From NCBI GenBank assembly GCA_023129805.1, contig JAGMBK010000084.1, forward strand, positions 1-8,328: a stretch of DNA of 8,328 bases, read 5' to 3'. Below, piece by piece: positions 255 through 8,328 of the stretch. Origin of the DNA: Candidatus Zixiibacteriota bacterium (GTDB lineage Bacteria; Zixibacteria; MSB-5A5; SM1-73). A model generated the notes under the pieces. That model had not been told where the DNA came from, searched no databases, and worked only from the letters and a program-made list of their open reading frames with translations. Made by a program: the position numbers and the translations under genes. The stretch's first letter is position 1, and every line of letters begins with the position of its first letter.

Positions 255-329
255 GCCCCCGTAGCTCAGTTTGGATAGAGCAGTGGTTTCCTAAACCATT
301 GGTCGCCCGTTCGAGTCGGGCCGGGGGTA
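255..329 (+). tRNA. tRNA-Arg(CCU)
   Basis: The cloverleaf is complete. The acceptor stem 255-261/322-328 is seven pairs including one G-T. The D stem GCTC/GAGC is 264-267/278-281. The anticodon stem GTGGT/ACCAT (283-287/295-299) encloses loop TTCCTAA with anticodon CCT at 290-292. The variable loop is 5 nt. The T stem GCCCG/CGGGC (305-309/317-321) carries loop TTCGAGT. The discriminator base is A329 and the CCA end is not encoded. Anticodon CCU reads AGG arginine codons. The gene lies between two heptamer repeat clusters. Confidence 0.95.
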
Positions 330-1155: not shown

Positions 1156-1791
1156 TTGAAGGCAAAACGAAAAACGAACTCAAAGTTGGCCCAGAGTAGC
1201 CTGATCACGTTTTCTTTTATGAGCCAAGGCACTTCGCACTCCATCAAATTTCACATAAGGAAGCGTAGACTTTGCACCTTCATCAGAAGCTTCGGAAATG
1301 ACGGAGAGGTTAATCTGACGATCAGAGGAGGGAAGATTTCCGCTAGAGTGGAGTATTTGGGAAGCTCACAGTCTTTTTTGGGGATTTTGGGTGCCGATGG
1401 GAAATGGAATGGTAGGCTTGCAAGGCAGCAAAGGAAAGAAAAAATCACCCTTTTCATAAGAAGGGGAAAAATCAGCCGCAGAAGGATGAGTCAGGTTTCA
1501 AAACTCCTTAAGGGTGATTCCAACATTCTGCTTGAGAGGGGAAAGAGAAGAAAATCAAAAACAGCAGATTCTCAATTCGAGGTAAAACTGACGCTGTCTC
1601 CGAAGCTTGAAGTTTCTGGATTCATCAAACACAAATCTGGCAGACATCATACCAGGATAGAATTAATTCCAGGCGGAAGATGGAACGTAAAAGGATGGAT
1701 CAAACTGACAGGCGGAAAGTTTTTGTTTTCAGCGGAAAGCGGTAAATGCCAAACCTGTTTTGAAGGAACGCCTCGCTTTGGTCCGAAATGA
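1156..1791 (+). CDS. Hypothetical very basic, internally duplicated beta-rich protein
   Basis: This encodes 211 residues of unknown family. TTG at 1156 is chosen because AGGGAAG lies 6 nt upstream, the frame is closed by TAG at 1129-1131, and a strong promoter precedes it. The next ATG (1219) has no ribosome binding site. Lysine and arginine are abundant throughout. Alternating hydrophobic and polar residues suggest beta strands. Residues about 51-105 and 142-197 look like two copies of one unit: EVNLT...GKIS...GKWNG and EVKLT...KLEV...GRWNVKG. A CxxC pair (CQTC, 198-201) lies near the C-terminus. No signal peptide or membrane segment is visible. The charge suggests binding to nucleic acid or another polyanion, but no function is assigned. 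The gene converges on the WYL regulator with only 7 bases between their stop codons. Confidence 0.7.
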   Translation: MKAKRKTNSKLAQSSLITFSFMSQGTSHSIKFHIRKRRLCTFIRSFGNDGEVNLTIRGGKISARVEYLGSSQSFLGILGADGKWNGRLARQQRKEKITLFIRRGKISRRRMSQVSKLLKGDSNILLERGKRRKSKTADSQFEVKLTLSPKLEVSGFIKHKSGRHHTRIELIPGGRWNVKGWIKLTGGKFLFSAESGKCQTCFEGTPRFGPK

Positions 1792-1801
1792 AGTGACTTC
1801 A
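1789..1801. other. Perfect dyad holding both convergent stop codons
   Basis: TGAAGT-G-ACTTCA is a 13-bp perfect palindrome. Its left end is the TGA of the plus-strand gene, and its right end, read on the minus strand, is the TGA of the WYL regulator. It is too short and lacks T runs for a clear terminator. No other hairpin separates the two converging transcripts. Confidence 0.6.
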
Positions 1802-2410
1802 GGAAAAGCTAATATTTTTTATCATCTCCAGTCGGAAGTATCTTATCTTCTGTTGAATGAGCCCTGCTAAATGCCAGTTTCCTTGTTTGTAGATCAAAGC
1901 CTTAGGAACAAGCTCGATGACATCGGAGAACAAGGCCGAAACAAAATGTAACCTGATTTTTTCCCCCGACGATATCGCTTTCCTGAGGAGTTCGAATATG
2001 AGGGATGTACTTTCACAGGAAGGTTTCTCTTTCGGCTGAACCGTGATTTGCTCTTTTGCCTTTTCATAATCGACTTTGATTTTTTCCGGCATCAAAGACT
2101 CAAGCTTTGCCAATGCCTGCTTGGCAGACTTCCTTAGGCAGTCGACTGATTGAACCGGGCTAGAGCTTAGTCCTATGTAGATGCTTTGAAGTTCATCAAA
2201 AGTAAAATTTAGAGGTGGCAAGAAGGCATGGGTGAGGAGTTTGTATCCTCGATCGAAGTAGATCGGGACCCCAACTTCAGATAAGGCTTGAATGTCTCTA
2301 TACATCGTCCTTTCAGAAACCTCACATTCATTAGCCAGATCAGAAGCCTTGAAATTTCTCCTGGACCTTAAAAGATTTAGAATTAAAAGCAATCGGTCTG
2401 ATTTAGCCAC
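1799..2410 (-). CDS. WYL-domain transcriptional regulator (HTH_11 plus WYL)
   Basis: A cytoplasmic DNA-binding regulator of the YafY/PafBC-like WYL superfamily, 203 residues. Residues 4-60 are a winged helix-turn-helix with the typical run SDRLLLIL, then VSERTMYRDIQALSEVGVPI and RGYKL. Residues about 137-203 are a WYL domain. The signature W-Y-L is W-H-L here (GNWHLAG, 177-183), and the basic IRYFRLEMI strand with R190 and R193 is kept. WYL domains in other proteins bind nucleic acid or ligand. The protein ends right after that strand, so the C-terminal extension found in many full-length members is absent. The GTG start lies 2 nt after the AAA+ gene's stop with no clear Shine-Dalgarno, which implies coupled translation. 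The N-terminal residues match the usual family start. It is the last gene of the sigma-54 operon. Its target is unknown and could include its own operon. Confidence 0.9.
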   Translation of the reverse strand: MAKSDRLLLILNLLRSRRNFKASDLANECEVSERTMYRDIQALSEVGVPIYFDRGYKLLTHAFLPPLNFTFDELQSIYIGLSSSPVQSVDCLRKSAKQALAKLESLMPEKIKVDYEKAKEQITVQPKEKPSCESTSLIFELLRKAISSGEKIRLHFVSALFSDVIELVPKALIYKQGNWHLAGLIQQKIRYFRLEMIKNISFS

Positions 2411-2412
2411 TT

Positions 2413-3180
2413 TTAGCCAAGTGAATGCATTTTTGATGCAAATTTAGTTAGGTTCTCCGATAGCACGGATGGTTTTATTGACTCATAGTCTTTGGTCAAA
2501 GTCGCAGCTCGTTCGATCTCCATTCTCAGTTCGCAGATATTATCGGGCCAATTATATTGTAGGAGAAGCTCGAGTGTATCAAGAGTGATTCCTAAGACAT
2601 TCCTCTTCTGTTCTTTATTAAAGTGAGATATAAATCTCTCAGCCAACTTAGGGATTTCTTTTTTCCTCTCTCTTAGAGGAAGAACCCTGATCTTCACGCA
2701 GAAAAGACTATTCAAGAATCTATGAAGTTGGATGTTGATTAGTGATTCTTTACGTCTGCTCGTTTGCAGCGACCCAATTATCCCTGAACTCAGAAGTCTG
2801 TTTCTGGGGAAAGCCCCCCTCTTACCCAACTCCCCGAGAGAATCGGAGAGTCGGGCAAGCAGGTGTGCCTGTAGGAAATCGATTCTTCTGATAAAAAAGG
2901 TGTCCTTCTGTGTTGGTCTTCGGAGTTTTTGAAAAAAGACTGGGGAGGTGAGCTGTTCGACTATCCTTGTTTGGTCTCGAACCGTCCGTTCGCAATCATA
3001 GACCGCTAACTCACCCCCCCAGTTTCTTCCCTGATGGATGAGTTTGGCGAAGTGCTCCTTGCCCACCCCAGCCTCTCCTTCCAGCACCACATTGACGGGA
3101 GATTGGATGGCTCGACTCAGCCCCCTGTGAGACTCATGTGTCTTCTTGGTCTTCTTTATGCTCTCCCTTGCCCTTCTCAA
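2413..3180 (-). CDS. Degenerate NtrC-family AAA+ domain protein (probable pseudo-ATPase)
   Basis: This protein of 255 residues is a stand-alone relative of the sigma-54 activator AAA+ domain. It lacks a receiver domain and a DNA-binding domain. The P-loop is intact (GEAGVGKE, 35-42). The lid is recognisable (LPLRERKKEIPKLAERFISHF at about 167-187, then NWPDNICELRMEIERAATL at about 210-228). The machinery is otherwise lost. No GAFTGA loop exists. Walker B reads TFFIRRID where FLDE is expected. The two arginine-finger positions of FRxDLYYRLN align with INIQLHRFLN. ATP binding is plausible, but hydrolysis and sigma-54 remodelling are not. TTG is taken as start because it overlaps the preceding stop as TTGA, implying coupled translation. 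No ribosome binding site is visible. It may act as an adaptor or inhibitor of an active paralogue such as the neighbouring giant regulator, or it may be decaying. The open frame and tidy operon spacing favour function. Confidence 0.85.
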   Translation of the reverse strand: MRRARESIKKTKKTHESHRGLSRAIQSPVNVVLEGEAGVGKEHFAKLIHQGRNWGGELAVYDCERTVRDQTRIVEQLTSPVFFQKLRRPTQKDTFFIRRIDFLQAHLLARLSDSLGELGKRGAFPRNRLLSSGIIGSLQTSRRKESLINIQLHRFLNSLFCVKIRVLPLRERKKEIPKLAERFISHFNKEQKRNVLGITLDTLELLLQYNWPDNICELRMEIERAATLTKDYESIKPSVLSENLTKFASKMHSLG

Positions 3181-3392
3181 AGAATCAGTTGCAAAATGGT
3201 CGTAAGTGCAATGATAATGGAACTTCCATCGCCGCCTTCCGATCCGCCGCTAGTGGGAGTTGGGGGTTGCTCATCGTCCCACTGACCTCCACCACCGCCG
3301 CCATAAACTGCGCTCCCCGTGAAGCAGCTGAACAGCAAAAAGGCCACGAGGATCAGGGTCAGGACCCCGAGTGAATTGAACTTGGAAAGCAT
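3177..3392 (-). CDS. Small glycine-rich exported or lipoprotein-like peptide
   Basis: This encodes 71 residues, first in the sigma-54 operon. The ATG at 3392 is preceded 5 nt upstream by GGAGG (3402-3398), the best ribosome binding site in the operon. A TTG at 3431 in the same frame coincides with the predicted transcription start and is rejected. Residues 1-7 are short and polar with one lysine. Residues 8-22 form a hydrophobic core ending LLFSC. This resembles a lipobox with Cys23, although Phe at -2 is atypical, so cleavage by signal peptidase I after GSA is an alternative. A Gly6 tract (31-36) follows, then an acidic and Pro/Gly/Ser-rich linker (37-57). The tail of about 14 residues (SSIIIALTTILQLIL) is hydrophobic and could be a second membrane segment. 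The stop overlaps the start of the AAA+ gene as TTGA. No family is recognised. A role as an envelope-side partner of the module is inference. Confidence 0.75.
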   Translation of the reverse strand: MLSKFNSLGVLTLILVAFLLFSCFTGSAVYGGGGGGQWDDEQPPTPTSGGSEGGDGSSIIIALTTILQLIL

Positions 3393-3397
3393 AGAAA

Positions 3398-3402
3398 CCT
3401 CC
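3398..3402 (-). promoter_or_regulatory. Ribosome binding site GGAGG that decides the start at 3392
   Basis: On the minus strand GGAGG stands 5 nt before ATG. It lies inside the approximately 39-nt leader predicted from the sigma-54 promoter, and it rules out the longer TTG form. Confidence 0.85.
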
Positions 3403-3441
3403 GTGTTTGAGGGTTTTTTGGGTCTTTCCAAGGTCAGTCAT

Positions 3442-3457
3442 TGCAAGCCCAGTGCCC
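3442..3457 (-). promoter_or_regulatory. Sigma-54 (-24/-12) promoter
   Basis: Read on the minus strand from 3457 the sequence is GGGCACTGGGCTTGCA, against consensus TGGCAC(G)N4TTGCA. The -24 GG (3456-3455) and -12 GC (3444-3443) are separated by the required 10 bp, and CAC and TTGCA match fully. Only the T before GG differs. Transcription would begin near 3431, about 39 nt before the ATG at 3392. No sigma-70 promoter of comparable quality is seen upstream. Two dyads at 3545-3566 and 3702-3715 sit at enhancer distance. This implies that the three-gene operon needs RpoN and an activator of the NtrC class. Confidence 0.8.
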
Positions 3458-3544
3458 AAAACATGAGCAGTGAGTTTACTCTATGTAGGCCAGAGGCTTA
3501 TAACAAAAACGGAAGGTCGGCTTTGTTTGGATAATGGGGGGATA

Positions 3545-3566
3545 GACTCGTCGATAATGACGAATC
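3545..3566. promoter_or_regulatory. Candidate enhancer dyad 1 for the sigma-54 promoter
   Basis: GACTCGTC-gataat-GACGAATC has 8-nt arms with a single mismatch. The core CGTCGATAATGACG (3549-3562) shares CGTCnnnnATGACG with the site at 3702-3715. Its centre lies about 125 bp upstream of the predicted sigma-54 start point, within the usual range for an activator binding site. The likely binder is the Fis-type helix-turn-helix protein encoded just upstream, by inference. Confidence 0.5.
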
Positions 3567-3614
3567 AGTGAAGGCGTGTTCGTAACTTTAATTTTCGGAA
3601 AAGGTTACAGAAGA

Positions 3615-3628
3615 CGGCGCTTTCGCCG
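3615..3628 (-). terminator. GC-rich hairpin after the giant regulator gene
   Basis: CGGCG-AAAG-CGCCG on the minus strand lies about 80 nt after the stop of the giant gene. The sequence after it is only moderately T-rich, without a proper T run. It may be a weak terminator or an mRNA 3' hairpin. Confidence 0.3.
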
Positions 3629-3701
3629 AAGTCCTTGCTAGGGGACATTTGGGGGGAGTATTGCCTAACTTATTTGTACTGAGATAATTAGAAGGAGGAA
3701 T

Positions 3702-3715
3702 CGTCATCTATGACG
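3702..3715. promoter_or_regulatory. Candidate enhancer dyad 2, overlapping the giant gene's stop codon
   Basis: CGTCAT-CT-ATGACG is a perfect palindrome with 6-bp arms, and it shares CGTCnnnnATGACG with dyad 1. The two centres are 153 bp apart. The TAG stop of the giant regulator (3710-3708) lies inside it. It is about 277 bp upstream of the predicted sigma-54 start. Confidence 0.45.
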
Positions 3716-6700
3716 GCTTAATTCGAGCTGCCTTTCTGATTTTGTGCTTCTTGATCCTCCTTCTCAATGAGGTTTCATTCAGACCCAATTCCTCAGCTGC
3801 CCTGACCTGATTCCATTTGTTTCTCTGTAAAGCCTGAGTGATCTTTTTCTTTTCCACCCAGTCAAGCACTTCTTGAAGCTTACCATATTTATCCAGATTG
3901 ACCAATCCCTTTCCTTTCTGAACCTCGTCTGGTAAAAGCTCCTTGGGGAACTTCCCATTTTCGCCTAGCAGCATCGCACTCTCAATAAGATGTTCTAACT
4001 CTCGTACATTGCCCGGCCAGCTATAATTCTGCAAGGCGGTTATTGTCTTCTTAGTCACCTTGATCTCTGGTTTATTGTTCTCTTTTGAGAATTGCTTCGC
4101 GAAGTGGTGCACAAGATAGGGAATGTCATCTTTCCTTTCGCGAAGAGGGGGAATGGTGATAACTATCGGATTTAACCTGTAATACAAATCCTTTCTGAAT
4201 GTACCTTCTTCGATCTTTTTTTGCAGATCCATGTTGGTCGCCGAGATTATCCTGATATCCACCTTGATCAGTCTTTGCCCACCTACTCTCTCAAACTCCT
4301 TTTCTTGCAAAACCCTTAACACCTTGGCTTGGACAGATAAGCTCATATCTCCTATTTCATCTAAAAAGATGCTTCCGCCGTCTGCCAGCTCAAACTTCCC
4401 CTTTCTGAAGCCGACTCCTGTGGCTATTTTTTCCTCAATCCCGAACAGCTCACTTTCTAATAAGGTTTCGGGCAAGGCAGCGCAGTTCACTCGTATAAAT
4501 GGTCCATCTCGTCTTTGACTTCTTGTATGGACGAGATGAGCAATTAGCTCCTTGCCGGTCCCATTCTCGCCAGAAATAAGAACGCTGGTTTTCGAATTGG
4601 CTACTTTCTCCGCCAGATTAAAAATTTCCTGCATTTTTGCGCTTTTTCCGATGGTCTGAGGATGTTGGTAGGATTTGTGCAGGACGCCTTTCAACTGAAA
4701 GATTTCCTCATTTGCTTTGACGTACAGTTCACTTTTTTCAATAGCGGTAGCGATCAGACTGGCAAAGGCCTTCAGGAAATCAACATCGTCTGAGGAAAAT
4801 ACTGCGGGAAGGCTTCGGTGATCCAAGTATACGGTTCCGATAAGCCTATTTTTGGTTCTTAGGGGAACACAAAGGATGGAAAGGATGTTATACATAATCA
4901 CACTTTTACTTCTGGCAAATTGTGGATCATTTGTCGCGTTCTCCACGATCAAAGGCGAATCACTTTCAATCACGTCTTTCAGAACTTGTCGGCTGATAGC
5001 GATGGCATCCTGGGAGGTCTCTGGCTCGAGTCCCTGGGAAACCTTTAGTTCAAAGGTCTTATCTGTTTCAGAATAGAGAATAACAGATCCTCTCTCTGCA
5101 TTTAAGAGCTCTATGACCAAGTCCAAGGCTTTTGATAACAATTCATCTGTATCCCAAATGCTATTCAATAATTCCGCCAGCTTGTAAAAAGTCTGGATTC
5201 TTTCTCTATCCAAGTGTCGCATTTCTTTCATTTGGCTTAACAAAACCTCCGCCTCCTTTCTTTTTCCCTCAACTTCTGACTTTTCGAAGATATTCACAGC
5301 CTCGCATAAAAAGGCTTTTCCTTCTTTGATCCTTCCCATTTCCAACTTGATCCTCCCAAGTTCAAGATATGTTCTGCCAAGCTCATATCTTGCTCCCAAT
5401 TGCTTAAAAATCCTGCCACTTTCCAGAAGGTATTCCAAACAAGCCCCCTTCTCTCCTTTAGTCTTCAGGAGATGGGCATAAACCTGCCTGAAGCTTCCGT
5501 CAAACCATTTGTTGTTTAGTGATTCTATAAACAGTCTAATTTGATTCAGATGTTCTTCGGCCCGTCGCAGGTTTCCCATCCGGAGAGCCAGCTCTCCTAC
5601 TGCAAGCTGAGCTTCAGCCTCTCCAAATCTATCCCGACTTTTTGAGAACAGTTCTGCCGCCTGATTCAAACTTTGCGTGGATAGATCAAAGTTGGACTGT
5701 TCCATGGCGATCTTCCCCAAAAGGAGCAAACAATCAGCGACCCTACCTTCTTCGCCCAGCTCTCTGGCTATTCTTAGACTTTTTTCTAAGTAATCCGAAG
5801 CTTTTTTCCATTTTTCCTTGCACCTATGCAGGTCTCCCAGGTTATAATAAACCAAAGCCACGCCACTTCTATCCCGAATTTCTTGAAACAATTGCAGAGC
5901 AGTAGCGAGATGCTCTACGGATTTGTCAAAGAGACCCTTCCTTAGATAAGCCAGTCCCATGTTATTATAGGACAGGGCTAGTCCCTTCAAATCAGAAATT
6001 CGCTTCTTGAGTTTCACGCTTTTTGAAAGGCACTCCAAAGCTTGATCCCAGCGGTTTAGGTCGATATAGATCAGGGCAAGATTGTTCTCCAATATGGACA
6101 GCCTATATGGGTCATGAAACGATTCTATAATTGCGTGCGCCTTCCGGGAATACTCAAGGGCTTGGTTTGGAAGCCCCCGACTTTTTAGAACCAAGCTCAG
6201 GTCAATATAGCACTTAGCGGTGCTCTGAATCTCTCCAAGTCTTTGGAAAAGATCAAGGCTTTTTGATAAATTCTCGAAAGCCAGGCGATAATTCCCCATT
6301 GACCAATGAACGCCCCCCATGCAGGTCAAAGCATTACCCATATCCTTTGTAAGTTGCTGACCCTTGAGTGCCGAAATTGCCTTCCGTAAATAGTGAATTG
6401 CCTTGTCATATTCACATTTGATCCTATGATCCCGAGCCAAGTCAATTAGCACTGAAGCATATTCTTGTGGTGAGTCTTCAAGATTTAACAGCTGTAATGC
6501 TTGATGAAGCGGTTCTATAGTCTTCTCATGCTGACTTGTTTTCCGGTAGATTCTGGCCATTTTTCTGTAAATCCAGGCAACGTGCCGGTTATCAAAATCC
6601 TTGCCCTTCAACAGTTCTAAGGCCTTTTGAAAATAATACAAGCTTTTCGTGTAATCACCGTCAGCCTCGTACTGCTCTGCTAAACTCTCCAAAATCTGTT

Positions 6701-8328
6701 CTTTATCTTTCGGTAGTGGGAAGGGACATTTATCACGGAGTTCCAGCACGCGCAGGTAATGGTTTATGGCTTGATTCCTTCTGCCTGAGCCCTCCGCCCT
6801 TTCAGCAGCCAACAGAGCGTATTTTAGCGCACGCTCATTATCTCCTGCTTGGTAGAAATGATCAGCTAATTGATCAAGGTGGGTTTCAATGTCAGTAGCA
6901 TATTTTTGTTCTAAATAGCGACCAACCGTTTCGTGAAAATTTCTCCTCTTTCGTCGATCAATCTGCTCATAGATGAAATCACGCGTGAAACCATTGAGGA
7001 AGCAAACTTTGTCTTTATCTGGCGACGTGGATGACCGCACCAAGATTTGTTCTGCCAGAATATTCTCCATGTGGTGTATGACAATTTCAGGATCAATGCC
7101 TGATACTTTACTTAGTAGATCAGCTTCAAACTCCAGACCTGAAACAGAAGCAATAGAGAGGAGATTTAACTCATCCTCACTCAGACGGCCAAGACGCCCT
7201 GCTATCTCTTTTGCAAATCCAAGTGGAACCGGGGTTGCATCAATCTGTTCCAATTGCACTACCCAACGACCTTTTTGCCTTTCGATCTGCTTATGGCTAA
7301 CCAACCACTCCATCAGTTGCTCAGTCAAAAGAGGATTGCCCCTTGTTCTTCTATGGACTGCTGCCGCGATCTCCTCTTCCTTCTCTTTCCATGCAAAAAT
7401 TGAGAAAAGAAGCTTTTTCTCTTCAGCTTCCGTCAACTTCTCCAGCCTAATTTGGATAATCGAATCTTTGTAGGCCGATCTGATTTCTTGCTCAATTTCA
7501 GATGCCCTTTTGTCCTTCTCGGAACAGGTGAAATCGTTTGTCAAAGTCATACAAACCAAAACCTTTTTGTTTCGCGTTTGAGAAATCAGATCAGAAAAGG
7601 ACTCAAGGGCTGAATCATCTGCTACCTCCAAATGCTCGAAAATTAGGACTGAGGGTTGGGAAATATTCTCTTGAAGATGAGAAATAACCTTTTGAAGCGC
7701 CTCCACAGATTCACTGTTAACCAAAGAAGCCTCGACCACCAACGCACCTTCAACTTGAGCCCAAGCTTCAAACTCTTGCAACAGTCTTGTTTTCCCCATT
7801 CCTAATTCGCCTGAAATAAGGACTACGGTGCCTTCGCCTGTCGAGGCTTGATTGAAAGCTTTTCTTAGAACAGAAAGCTCATTTTCTCTTCCGGCGAAAT
7901 CGCTAGACGCGATCAGACTTTTTGCCAGTGGCGCCTCGAGATCATCAATTCTCAGCCCTGAGATTCTTTCTATTTCACTCAAAACATCCTTTGCTGAAAA
8001 GTAGCGATCTATTGGATCTTTTTCTAGTAGCGTTAGGATTAGGTTTTTCAGGCCTGCGGGAAGCGAAGGTTCTTCAGGAATCACCACATCTTTTTCCAGG
8101 TGACTTTTGGCCAGATCCGTGATCTGTTCTTCATCAAAAGGTCTCTTTCCAAACAAGGTCTCATAAATTAGAACACCTAGCGAGTATAGATCTGCTTGAT
8201 GACTATATTTCTCGCCTCTAATGATCTCAGGGGCGAGATAAGAGAGAGTGCCTTTCCACCAGGTGAAATCCTTTACCTCTTCATATTCCGCAAAGCCAAA
8301 ATCGGTGAACTTCAGAGTCAGTCGACCC
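3708..8328 (-). CDS. Giant Ser/Thr kinase - AAA - TPR - GAF - sigma-54 activator - Fis HTH regulator (5' end outside window)
   Basis: The frame is open to the window edge; the TTG at 8156 is internal. Counting from the first full codon, 1539 residues are visible. Residues 1-127 are the kinase C-lobe: DFG 9-11, APE 32-34, DLYSLG 46-51, Arg108. Residues about 145-480 are a MalT/PknK-like ATPase with P-loop GELGMGKT (173-180). Residues about 487-1037 are a TPR array. Residues about 1042-1199 are GAF. Residues about 1223-1453 are a sigma-54 activator AAA+ with P-loop GENGTGKE (1253-1260), Walker B FLDE (1321-1324), FRKDLYYRLN fingers (R1378, R1384) and WPGNVREL. Residues about 1492-1530 are a Fis-type HTH. 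The loop that should read GAFTGA is EEKIATGV (1298-1305), lacking the phenylalanine that contacts sigma-54. Known parts suggest a cytoplasmic sensor and kinase that acts on transcription; signal and targets are unknown. It lies upstream of, and on the same strand as, the sigma-54 operon. Confidence 0.93.
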   Translation of the reverse strand, partial: GRLTLKFTDFGFAEYEEVKDFTWWKGTLSYLAPEIIRGEKYSHQADLYSLGVLIYETLFGKRPFDEEQITDLAKSHLEKDVVIPEEPSLPAGLKNLILTLLEKDPIDRYFSAKDVLSEIERISGLRIDDLEAPLAKSLIASSDFAGRENELSVLRKAFNQASTGEGTVVLISGELGMGKTRLLQEFEAWAQVEGALVVEASLVNSESVEALQKVISHLQENISQPSVLIFEHLEVADDSALESFSDLISQTRNKKVLVCMTLTNDFTCSEKDKRASEIEQEIRSAYKDSIIQIRLEKLTEAEEKKLLFSIFAWKEKEEEIAAAVHRRTRGNPLLTEQLMEWLVSHKQIERQKGRWVVQLEQIDATPVPLGFAKEIAGRLGRLSEDELNLLSIASVSGLEFEADLLSKVSGIDPEIVIHHMENILAEQILVRSSTSPDKDKVCFLNGFTRDFIYEQIDRRKRRNFHETVGRYLEQKYATDIETHLDQLADHFYQAGDNERALKYALLAAERAEGSGRRNQAINHYLRVLELRDKCPFPLPKDKEQILESLAEQYEADGDYTKSLYYFQKALELLKGKDFDNRHVAWIYRKMARIYRKTSQHEKTIEPLHQALQLLNLEDSPQEYASVLIDLARDHRIKCEYDKAIHYLRKAISALKGQQLTKDMGNALTCMGGVHWSMGNYRLAFENLSKSLDLFQRLGEIQSTAKCYIDLSLVLKSRGLPNQALEYSRKAHAIIESFHDPYRLSILENNLALIYIDLNRWDQALECLSKSVKLKKRISDLKGLALSYNNMGLAYLRKGLFDKSVEHLATALQLFQEIRDRSGVALVYYNLGDLHRCKEKWKKASDYLEKSLRIARELGEEGRVADCLLLLGKIAMEQSNFDLSTQSLNQAAELFSKSRDRFGEAEAQLAVGELALRMGNLRRAEEHLNQIRLFIESLNNKWFDGSFRQVYAHLLKTKGEKGACLEYLLESGRIFKQLGARYELGRTYLELGRIKLEMGRIKEGKAFLCEAVNIFEKSEVEGKRKEAEVLLSQMKEMRHLDRERIQTFYKLAELLNSIWDTDELLSKALDLVIELLNAERGSVILYSETDKTFELKVSQGLEPETSQDAIAISRQVLKDVIESDSPLIVENATNDPQFARSKSVIMYNILSILCVPLRTKNRLIGTVYLDHRSLPAVFSSDDVDFLKAFASLIATAIEKSELYVKANEEIFQLKGVLHKSYQHPQTIGKSAKMQEIFNLAEKVANSKTSVLISGENGTGKELIAHLVHTRSQRRDGPFIRVNCAALPETLLESELFGIEEKIATGVGFRKGKFELADGGSIFLDEIGDMSLSVQAKVLRVLQEKEFERVGGQRLIKVDIRIISATNMDLQKKIEEGTFRKDLYYRLNPIVITIPPLRERKDDIPYLVHHFAKQFSKENNKPEIKVTKKTITALQNYSWPGNVRELEHLIESAMLLGENGKFPKELLPDEVQKGKGLVNLDKYGKLQEVLDWVEKKKITQALQRNKWNQVRAAEELGLNETSLRRRIKKHKIRKAARIKPS

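Follow-up and report, generated by a model that had tools for sequence, protein, structure and literature searches.

Regulatory fusion and downstream operon

Does a large kinase-activator fusion from an uncultured bacterial phylum control the small operon that follows it, and do the two make up one conserved system? The question is raised by an 8,328-nucleotide stretch of Candidatus Zixiibacteriota bacterium (the window; contig JAGMBK010000084.1, assembly GCA_023129805.1). Its minus strand encodes, in order, a kinase-AAA_16-TPR-GAF-AAA+-helix-turn-helix (HTH) fusion, a 71-residue peptide, a short AAA+ protein and a 203-residue HTH-WYL protein. The original prediction saw in these genes a possible undescribed signalling module. 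We find that the gene set is real and forms a conserved, apparently unnamed module of Zixibacteria. Its conserved core is the fusion, the peptide and the WYL protein; the short AAA+, a catalytically dead relative of bacterial enhancer-binding proteins (bEBPs) to judge by its residues, is an insertion between peptide and WYL genes in one branch. The genes lie as follows.

3708..8328, minus strand: fusion (kinase, AAA_16, TPR array, GAF, sigma-54-type AAA+, Fis-type HTH); open reading frame (ORF) read from 8327 to 3708, 5' end beyond the window
3177..3392, minus strand: 71-residue Gly-rich peptide, predicted to be exported, with C-terminal hydrophobic tail and ATG start (from ORF and synteny)
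2413..3180, minus strand: apparently dead AAA+ resembling sigma-54 activators (pseudo-bEBP), TTG start overlapping the peptide stop (from Pfam and alignment)
1799..2410, minus strand: short HTH-WYL regulator, 203 residues, GTG start, lacking the extension found at the C terminus of long WYL proteins (from Pfam)

Conservation of the module in Zixibacteria

The survey covered 132 Zixibacteria genomes (loci are labelled L and genomes G). With a full-length fusion as query, relatives were found in at least 47 of the 132 at E ≤ 1e-100, a lower bound that says little about copy number since three candidates were scored per genome. Fifty-six regions were retrieved in three rounds, part of them picked through a WYL search, and 46 loci with a fusion whose GAFTGA loop is altered (variant fusions) were parsed, the window included. 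Of these, 45 were usable downstream, L122 having only 226 nucleotides (nt) beyond its fusion. L105, L106, L117 and L118 fell outside the pattern parse and were read separately, the latter two also standing outside the 41 promoter and peptide loci described below. Left out were L173 (contig end), L178 (fusion unparsed), L176 and L182 (no fusion) and G102:C190 (start of the G102 fusion).

A peptide of 68–90 residues follows the variant fusion in 41 of the 45 parsed loci, a short HTH-WYL gene likewise in 41 (WYL match at E ≤ 1e-10) and both together in 38; L117 and L118 are two further variant loci with both. The fusion stop lies 228–366 nt from the peptide start, and the loci that were read hardly differ in gene order or spacing. 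Neither gene was found downstream of fusions with a canonical GAFTGA (0/8), and a tree of a fusion sample places variant-loop fusions (17 rows, 99/95) apart from GAFTGA fusions (6 rows, 99/100). Departures from the pattern are L101 and L111 (no peptide, WYL cut down), L129 (neither gene after the fusion), L133 (an ORF with a signal but no tail in place of the peptide), L050 and L097 (no WYL after the fusion) and L180 (WYL match only weak). Eleven of the 46 regions came from the third retrieval, and seven (L167–L172 and L175) are not independent for WYL because they were selected by it; fusion and peptide are present in all seven.

The genes adjoin in related genomes, so the condition that would have refuted the original prediction does not hold. 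In all four loci that carry the pseudo-bEBP and have readable context (the window, L001, L002 and L050), the fusion is upstream with the peptide between, as the original prediction anticipated in placing the fusion beside the operon. The close packing it described, a TTGA overlap between peptide and AAA+ genes and a 2-nt gap between AAA+ and WYL genes, is borne out by the junction sequences. It knew of no name for the gene set, and a literature search (open-licence PMC full text, spelling Zixibacteria) brought up no description of the set.

As a separate observation, downstream of a second variant fusion L129 (G071) has a sigma-54-like site and then, in place of a peptide gene, an ORF that by eye resembles an ImmA/IrrE-type metalloprotease gene.

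A predicted sigma-54-type promoter and paired inverted repeats

The region between fusion and peptide carries a predicted promoter, two candidate enhancers and a ribosome-binding site.

3701..3716, no strand assigned: inverted repeat 1, candidate enhancer, overlapping the fusion stop codon; same position in L001, L002 and L050
3548..3563, no strand assigned: inverted repeat 2, candidate enhancer, TCGTC-N6-GACGA; counterpart at +132 to +157 in L001, L050 and L097, half-site only in L002
3442..3457, minus strand: predicted sigma-54-type -24/-12 promoter, GGGCACTGGGCTTGCA, one mismatch; position conserved in relatives
3398..3402, minus strand: ribosome-binding site GGAGG of the peptide gene (from sequence)

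In 40 of 41 loci (L108 is the exception, and the site of L104 is weak), the top-scoring sigma-54-type site of the fusion–peptide spacer is 54–80 nt upstream of the peptide start, and 30 of the 41 sites beat at least 95% of 200 shuffles of their own region. In the window by itself such a site is not above chance (2 matches, 3.69 expected); support for the predicted promoter comes from its conserved position in relatives and not from the window count. The same scan on the reverse strand put 5 of 41 best sites in the 54–80 interval (median score 17 versus 20.5). GG is present in 40 of 40 promoters and TTG in 38 to 39, counts that are not free of selection because the scoring favours these letters; the -24 element is kept beside variant fusions. 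RpoN was found in 119 of the 132 genomes. The conserved position of the predicted promoter supports the earlier view of the operon as a likely sigma-54 target adjoining its activator.

Within the window clade, the inverted repeat TCGTCA-N4-TGACGA occurs at the fusion stop codon, with a second copy about 130–157 nt further; one of the two sites is only half present in L002 and L097. Allowing up to two mismatches, the window has 2 sites (0.20 expected; as many in 6/200 shuffles), L001 has 2 (12/200 shuffles), L050 has 2 (1/200 shuffles) and L002 has 1, which is not above chance (68/200 shuffles). These pairs, upstream of the predicted promoter, look like enhancers. The upstream binding-site signal is weaker outside the window clade: TTTGCC/GGCAAA is enriched in the other clade (31 versus 5.4 expected), in 15 of 34 loci. 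Exact matches to the repeat elsewhere in G001 and G002 lie near genes unlike the module (near-matches were not sought), among them two within 560 nt of each other on G002:C1.

A probable activator with an altered GAFTGA loop

Pfam assigns Pkinase, AAA_16, TPR, GAF, Sigma54_activat and HTH_8 to the window fusion. Only the C-terminal part of the kinase falls within the window, and full-length relatives (1,674 residues in L001, 1,685 in L002) have the whole of it. The L001 kinase matches Pkinase over its entire length (3.5e-50) with catalytic Asp and DFG visible; that of L115 matches more weakly (7.1e-15) and has DLD at the expected DFG. Two parts of the fusion bear on its action at a promoter.

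4413..4430, minus strand: GAFTGA-equivalent L1 loop, KIATGV (from the window sequence)
3744..3857, minus strand: HTH_8 DNA-binding domain, residues 1491–1528 (from Pfam)

Like the canonical bEBPs NtrC, NifA and PspF, the fusion has Walker A and B motifs, arginine fingers, a Fis-type HTH, upstream inverted repeats and a -24/-12 promoter nearby. Unlike them, it has an N-terminal kinase and TPRs, and ATGV in place of GAFTGA; the original prediction did not remark on this loop. Walker A is present in 46 of 46 variant fusions, having also served to find them, a Walker B match in 45 and arginine fingers in 42. At sensor I, all nine fusion segments inspected read ATN; asparagine patterns for this element failed (0/46, 17/46 and 14/45) and so give no count. 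The residue at the GAFTGA Phe position is Ala in 41 variant fusions, Val in 3 and Phe in 2, while all 46 have Thr or Ser at position 4 of the loop and 45 have Val at position 6. Outside this group, Phe or Tyr occupies the site in five parsed free bEBPs of G001 and G002, and in 23 of 23 parsed loci representing the best one or two matches in each of 15 genomes outside the set (best-ranked matches only, six further loci being unparsed).

Passages of PMC7175178 describe GAFTGA as contacting sigma-54 and the -11/-12 DNA, and in those of PMC3162934 changes at its F or T mostly abolish activity. Given the loss of Phe here and this cited role, ATGV would be either a working alternative or the mark of a fusion that acts in another way. 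The fusion might, for instance, be no sigma-54 activator at all, binding the repeats to block or help another activator or sigma-70 at this promoter. The loss of Phe from 44 of 46 variant fusions speaks for this, as does the naming, in PMC3162934, of non-functional homologues such as TyrR; TyrR, DhaR and HupR have likewise lost the key loop sequence. Yet the variant loop is a conserved alternative rather than a decaying one, as its fixed positions 4 and 6 indicate, Walker B and the arginine fingers are retained, and the adjoining promoter is still sigma-54-like in its -24 and TTG elements, all of which make a non-activating fusion unlikely.

L121 and L134 are the sole variant fusions to keep Phe, and both have TTGC, the canonical -12 element that is gone from most of the others; a link between the two features is suggestive only.

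The exported peptide

The window peptide is unmatched in Pfam, PADLOC and NCBIfam, and the family was assembled by synteny because a protein search with it gave one relative. Forty-one peptides were selected by rules requiring that start and tail both be hydrophobic, with a further point for a signal-like site, which in part builds these traits into the set. At least two Lys or Arg residues occur among the first 14 in 36 of the 41, and a signal-peptidase-like site in 39. Beyond residue 36, the 41 peptides together contain 275 Asp or Glu and 24 Lys or Arg; the last residue is Leu or Ile in 29, and an acidic residue lies 8–12 from the end in 31, but not in the window, L001 or L002. The original proposal of an exported Gly-rich peptide is supported, and the peptide may act in or on the cell envelope. 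Two close pairs gave nonsynonymous (dN) and synonymous (dS) divergences of 0.18 and 0.29, and of 0.26 and 0.49, consistent with a fast-evolving gene under weak constraint. At L127 (G046), two nearly identical peptide genes stand in tandem between fusion and WYL, about 256–840 nt past the fusion stop.

RRNPP quorum-sensing systems of Gram-positive bacteria pair a TPR protein with a small exported precursor encoded beside it. By analogy, the peptide here could be a pheromone, cut to its hydrophobic C-terminal tail, re-imported and read by the TPRs of the fusion. A TPR receptor does adjoin a small precursor with predicted export, and the hydrophobic tail ends exactly at the C terminus; the tails may resemble SHP and iCF10-type peptides. 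Unlike in RRNPP systems, the receptor would be a kinase-bEBP in another phylum. Against this reading, 10 of the 41 tails, including that of the window, have no acidic residue at -12 to -8. The reading is weakened because the oligopeptide-binding protein PF00496 is absent from 17 of 18 module genomes and present in 11 of 14 control genomes (draft genomes; other importers were not searched). With PF00496 in only 1 of 18 module genomes, we rejected re-uptake as the principal explanation and consider a pheromone quite improbable.

The WYL regulator

The window WYL protein matches HTH_11 and WYL in Pfam above the cut-offs, and its structure model has N-terminal helices and a C-terminal five-strand part (predicted local distance difference test score 79). 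It thus has the N-terminal HTH and WYL domain of WYL regulators, and we take it to resemble the YafY/PafBC type. Unlike full-length members, it has no C-terminal extension: at about 200 residues (203 in the window) it is without PF25583, presumably WCX, which long relatives of 314–344 residues carry. The best-scoring WYL relatives outside the window clade gave no PF13280 match. Away from the module, G086, G092, G085 and others have long and short WYL genes in tandem, an arrangement we assume to be akin to PafBC-type pairs.

WYL proteins are also linked to defence in passages of PMC4012209, and the module could be conceived as an anti-phage or abortive system in which a STAND/TPR kinase sensor would activate production of a membrane-active peptide, the WYL regulator being present as in defence loci. 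PADLOC matches to WYL, PD-T4-6-type kinases and RtcR-like AAA fit this, all of them generic domains. The nearly fixed order and spacing of the genes would be unexpected for patchy defence genes, however, and the window peptide matches no PADLOC model; we give a defence role little likelihood.

An apparently dead AAA+ inserted in one branch

The short AAA+ matches Sigma54_activat and AAA_lid_14 in Pfam and has the bEBP-type AAA+ fold. Two of its motifs are placed in the window.

3058..3078, minus strand: Walker A kept, GEAGVGK (from alignment)
2884..2889, minus strand: Arg-Arg replacing the Walker B Asp-Glu; R98 and R99 invariant in 41 rows

No variation occurs across 41 aligned pseudo-bEBP rows at Walker A positions G35, E36, G40 and K41, nor at the Arg-Arg that replaces the Walker B Asp-Glu. 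GAFTGA-like and arginine-finger patterns match in none (0/41). Walker B, GAFTGA, arginine fingers and a DNA-binding domain are all missing, and by these residues the protein looks catalytically dead. The original prediction had counted it among the core parts, which is not borne out: it was found in 3 of the 132 phylum genomes (E ≤ 1e-30). No pseudo-bEBP was found in G107, the fusion of which clusters with that of the window. A recent origin from the neighbouring fusion is likewise unsupported, the pseudo-bEBPs forming their own long branch away from the fusions in a tree that was midpoint-rooted only.

That long branch, the restriction to one lineage and the absence from G107 are what one might expect of a decaying remnant without function. 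Decay sits poorly with 26 invariant residues shared by the 41 rows, including Arg-Arg and part of the lid, and with 65 relatives in the database, and we regard a remnant as very improbable.

In G107, a window-type WYL gene (L176; G107:C1, about position 1267569) lies far from the fusion and directly follows a run of N; the missing pseudo-bEBP and WYL beside the G107 fusion may for this reason be a matter of assembly.

The nearest precedent is FleT/FleQ of Rhodobacter sphaeroides. FleT is expressed from an operon under the control of FleQ and sigma-54, and FleQ and FleT form a complex (PMC7277832); FleT is without regulatory and DNA-binding domains (PMC7175178); and the two jointly activate promoters (PMC9542535). 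The pseudo-bEBP differs in having lost Walker B, GAFTGA and arginine fingers, and in sitting with peptide and WYL genes. Because it has no catalytic residues, whereas FleT helps activation, it would more likely be a brake or adaptor.

A probable dedicated sigma-54 circuit

We consider it probable that the locus is a dedicated sigma-54 circuit, with one activator and one neighbouring operon that gives an envelope peptide and a WYL relay, and with a pseudo-activator modulating the ring. Input would come from a cytoplasmic cue, sensed by the fusion through its kinase, TPR and GAF parts. As the sequence supports, the fusion would then bind the paired inverted repeats lying between its 3' end and the gene downstream, and drive the -24/-12 promoter in that stretch. 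By annotation, the output would be a small peptide that is secreted, acidic, rich in Gly and Pro and hydrophobic in its C-terminal tail, presumably active at the envelope, together with the short HTH-WYL protein, which may pass on or limit the response. In the window branch, the putatively dead, DNA-binding-free bEBP encoded between them most likely joins or caps the AAA+ ring of the fusion and tunes its activity, by analogy with FleT and FleQ but without catalysis; it may also act in feedback, as suggested at the outset.

Several points weigh against this circuit. For the promoter, 11 of the 41 sites do not stand out from shuffles of their own region at the 5% level, the 54–80 nt interval was set after the data had been seen, 14 of 41 best sites also fell in it when the coding end of the fusion was scanned in this way (with a lower median score, 16.5 versus 20.5), and only 11 of 40 promoters retain the -12 C. 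For the binding sites, there is no exact inverted repeat at the G002 locus, and TTGCC/GGCAA is seen in 20 of the 34 loci of the other clade. For the activator, all but two of the variant fusions have lost the Phe that is regarded as essential to contact with sigma-54. For the peptide, hydrophobic start and tail are not independent evidence because the selection rules require both. Finally, expression, site binding and contact between pseudo-bEBP and fusion are all putative.

For an uncultured phylum, the circuit defines a regulatory module that is conserved, with predicted promoter, binding sites and outputs. Since its clade replaced the GAFTGA Phe beside sigma-54-like promoters, it offers a natural test of whether that Phe is dispensable, and in the pseudo-bEBP an AAA+ activator seems to have a naturally dead partner. 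A bolder proposal, which we hold only tentatively, is of a widespread Zixibacterial peptide-signalling or envelope-response system, with a new activator class that engages sigma-54 through an ATGV loop, alongside which the -12 element drifted, and one lineage that builds an ATPase-dead pseudo-activator from the same operon into the ring as a brake.

Neighbouring features

A convergent gene of about 203–211 residues at 1156–1791 (plus strand) has no family match in Pfam, PADLOC or NCBIfam. It may be part of the locus, because homologues judged by eye stand in the same place after WYL in L001 (8688–9299, minus strand) and L002 (8998–9609, minus strand). A tRNA-Arg (CCT) gene lies at 255–329 (plus strand).
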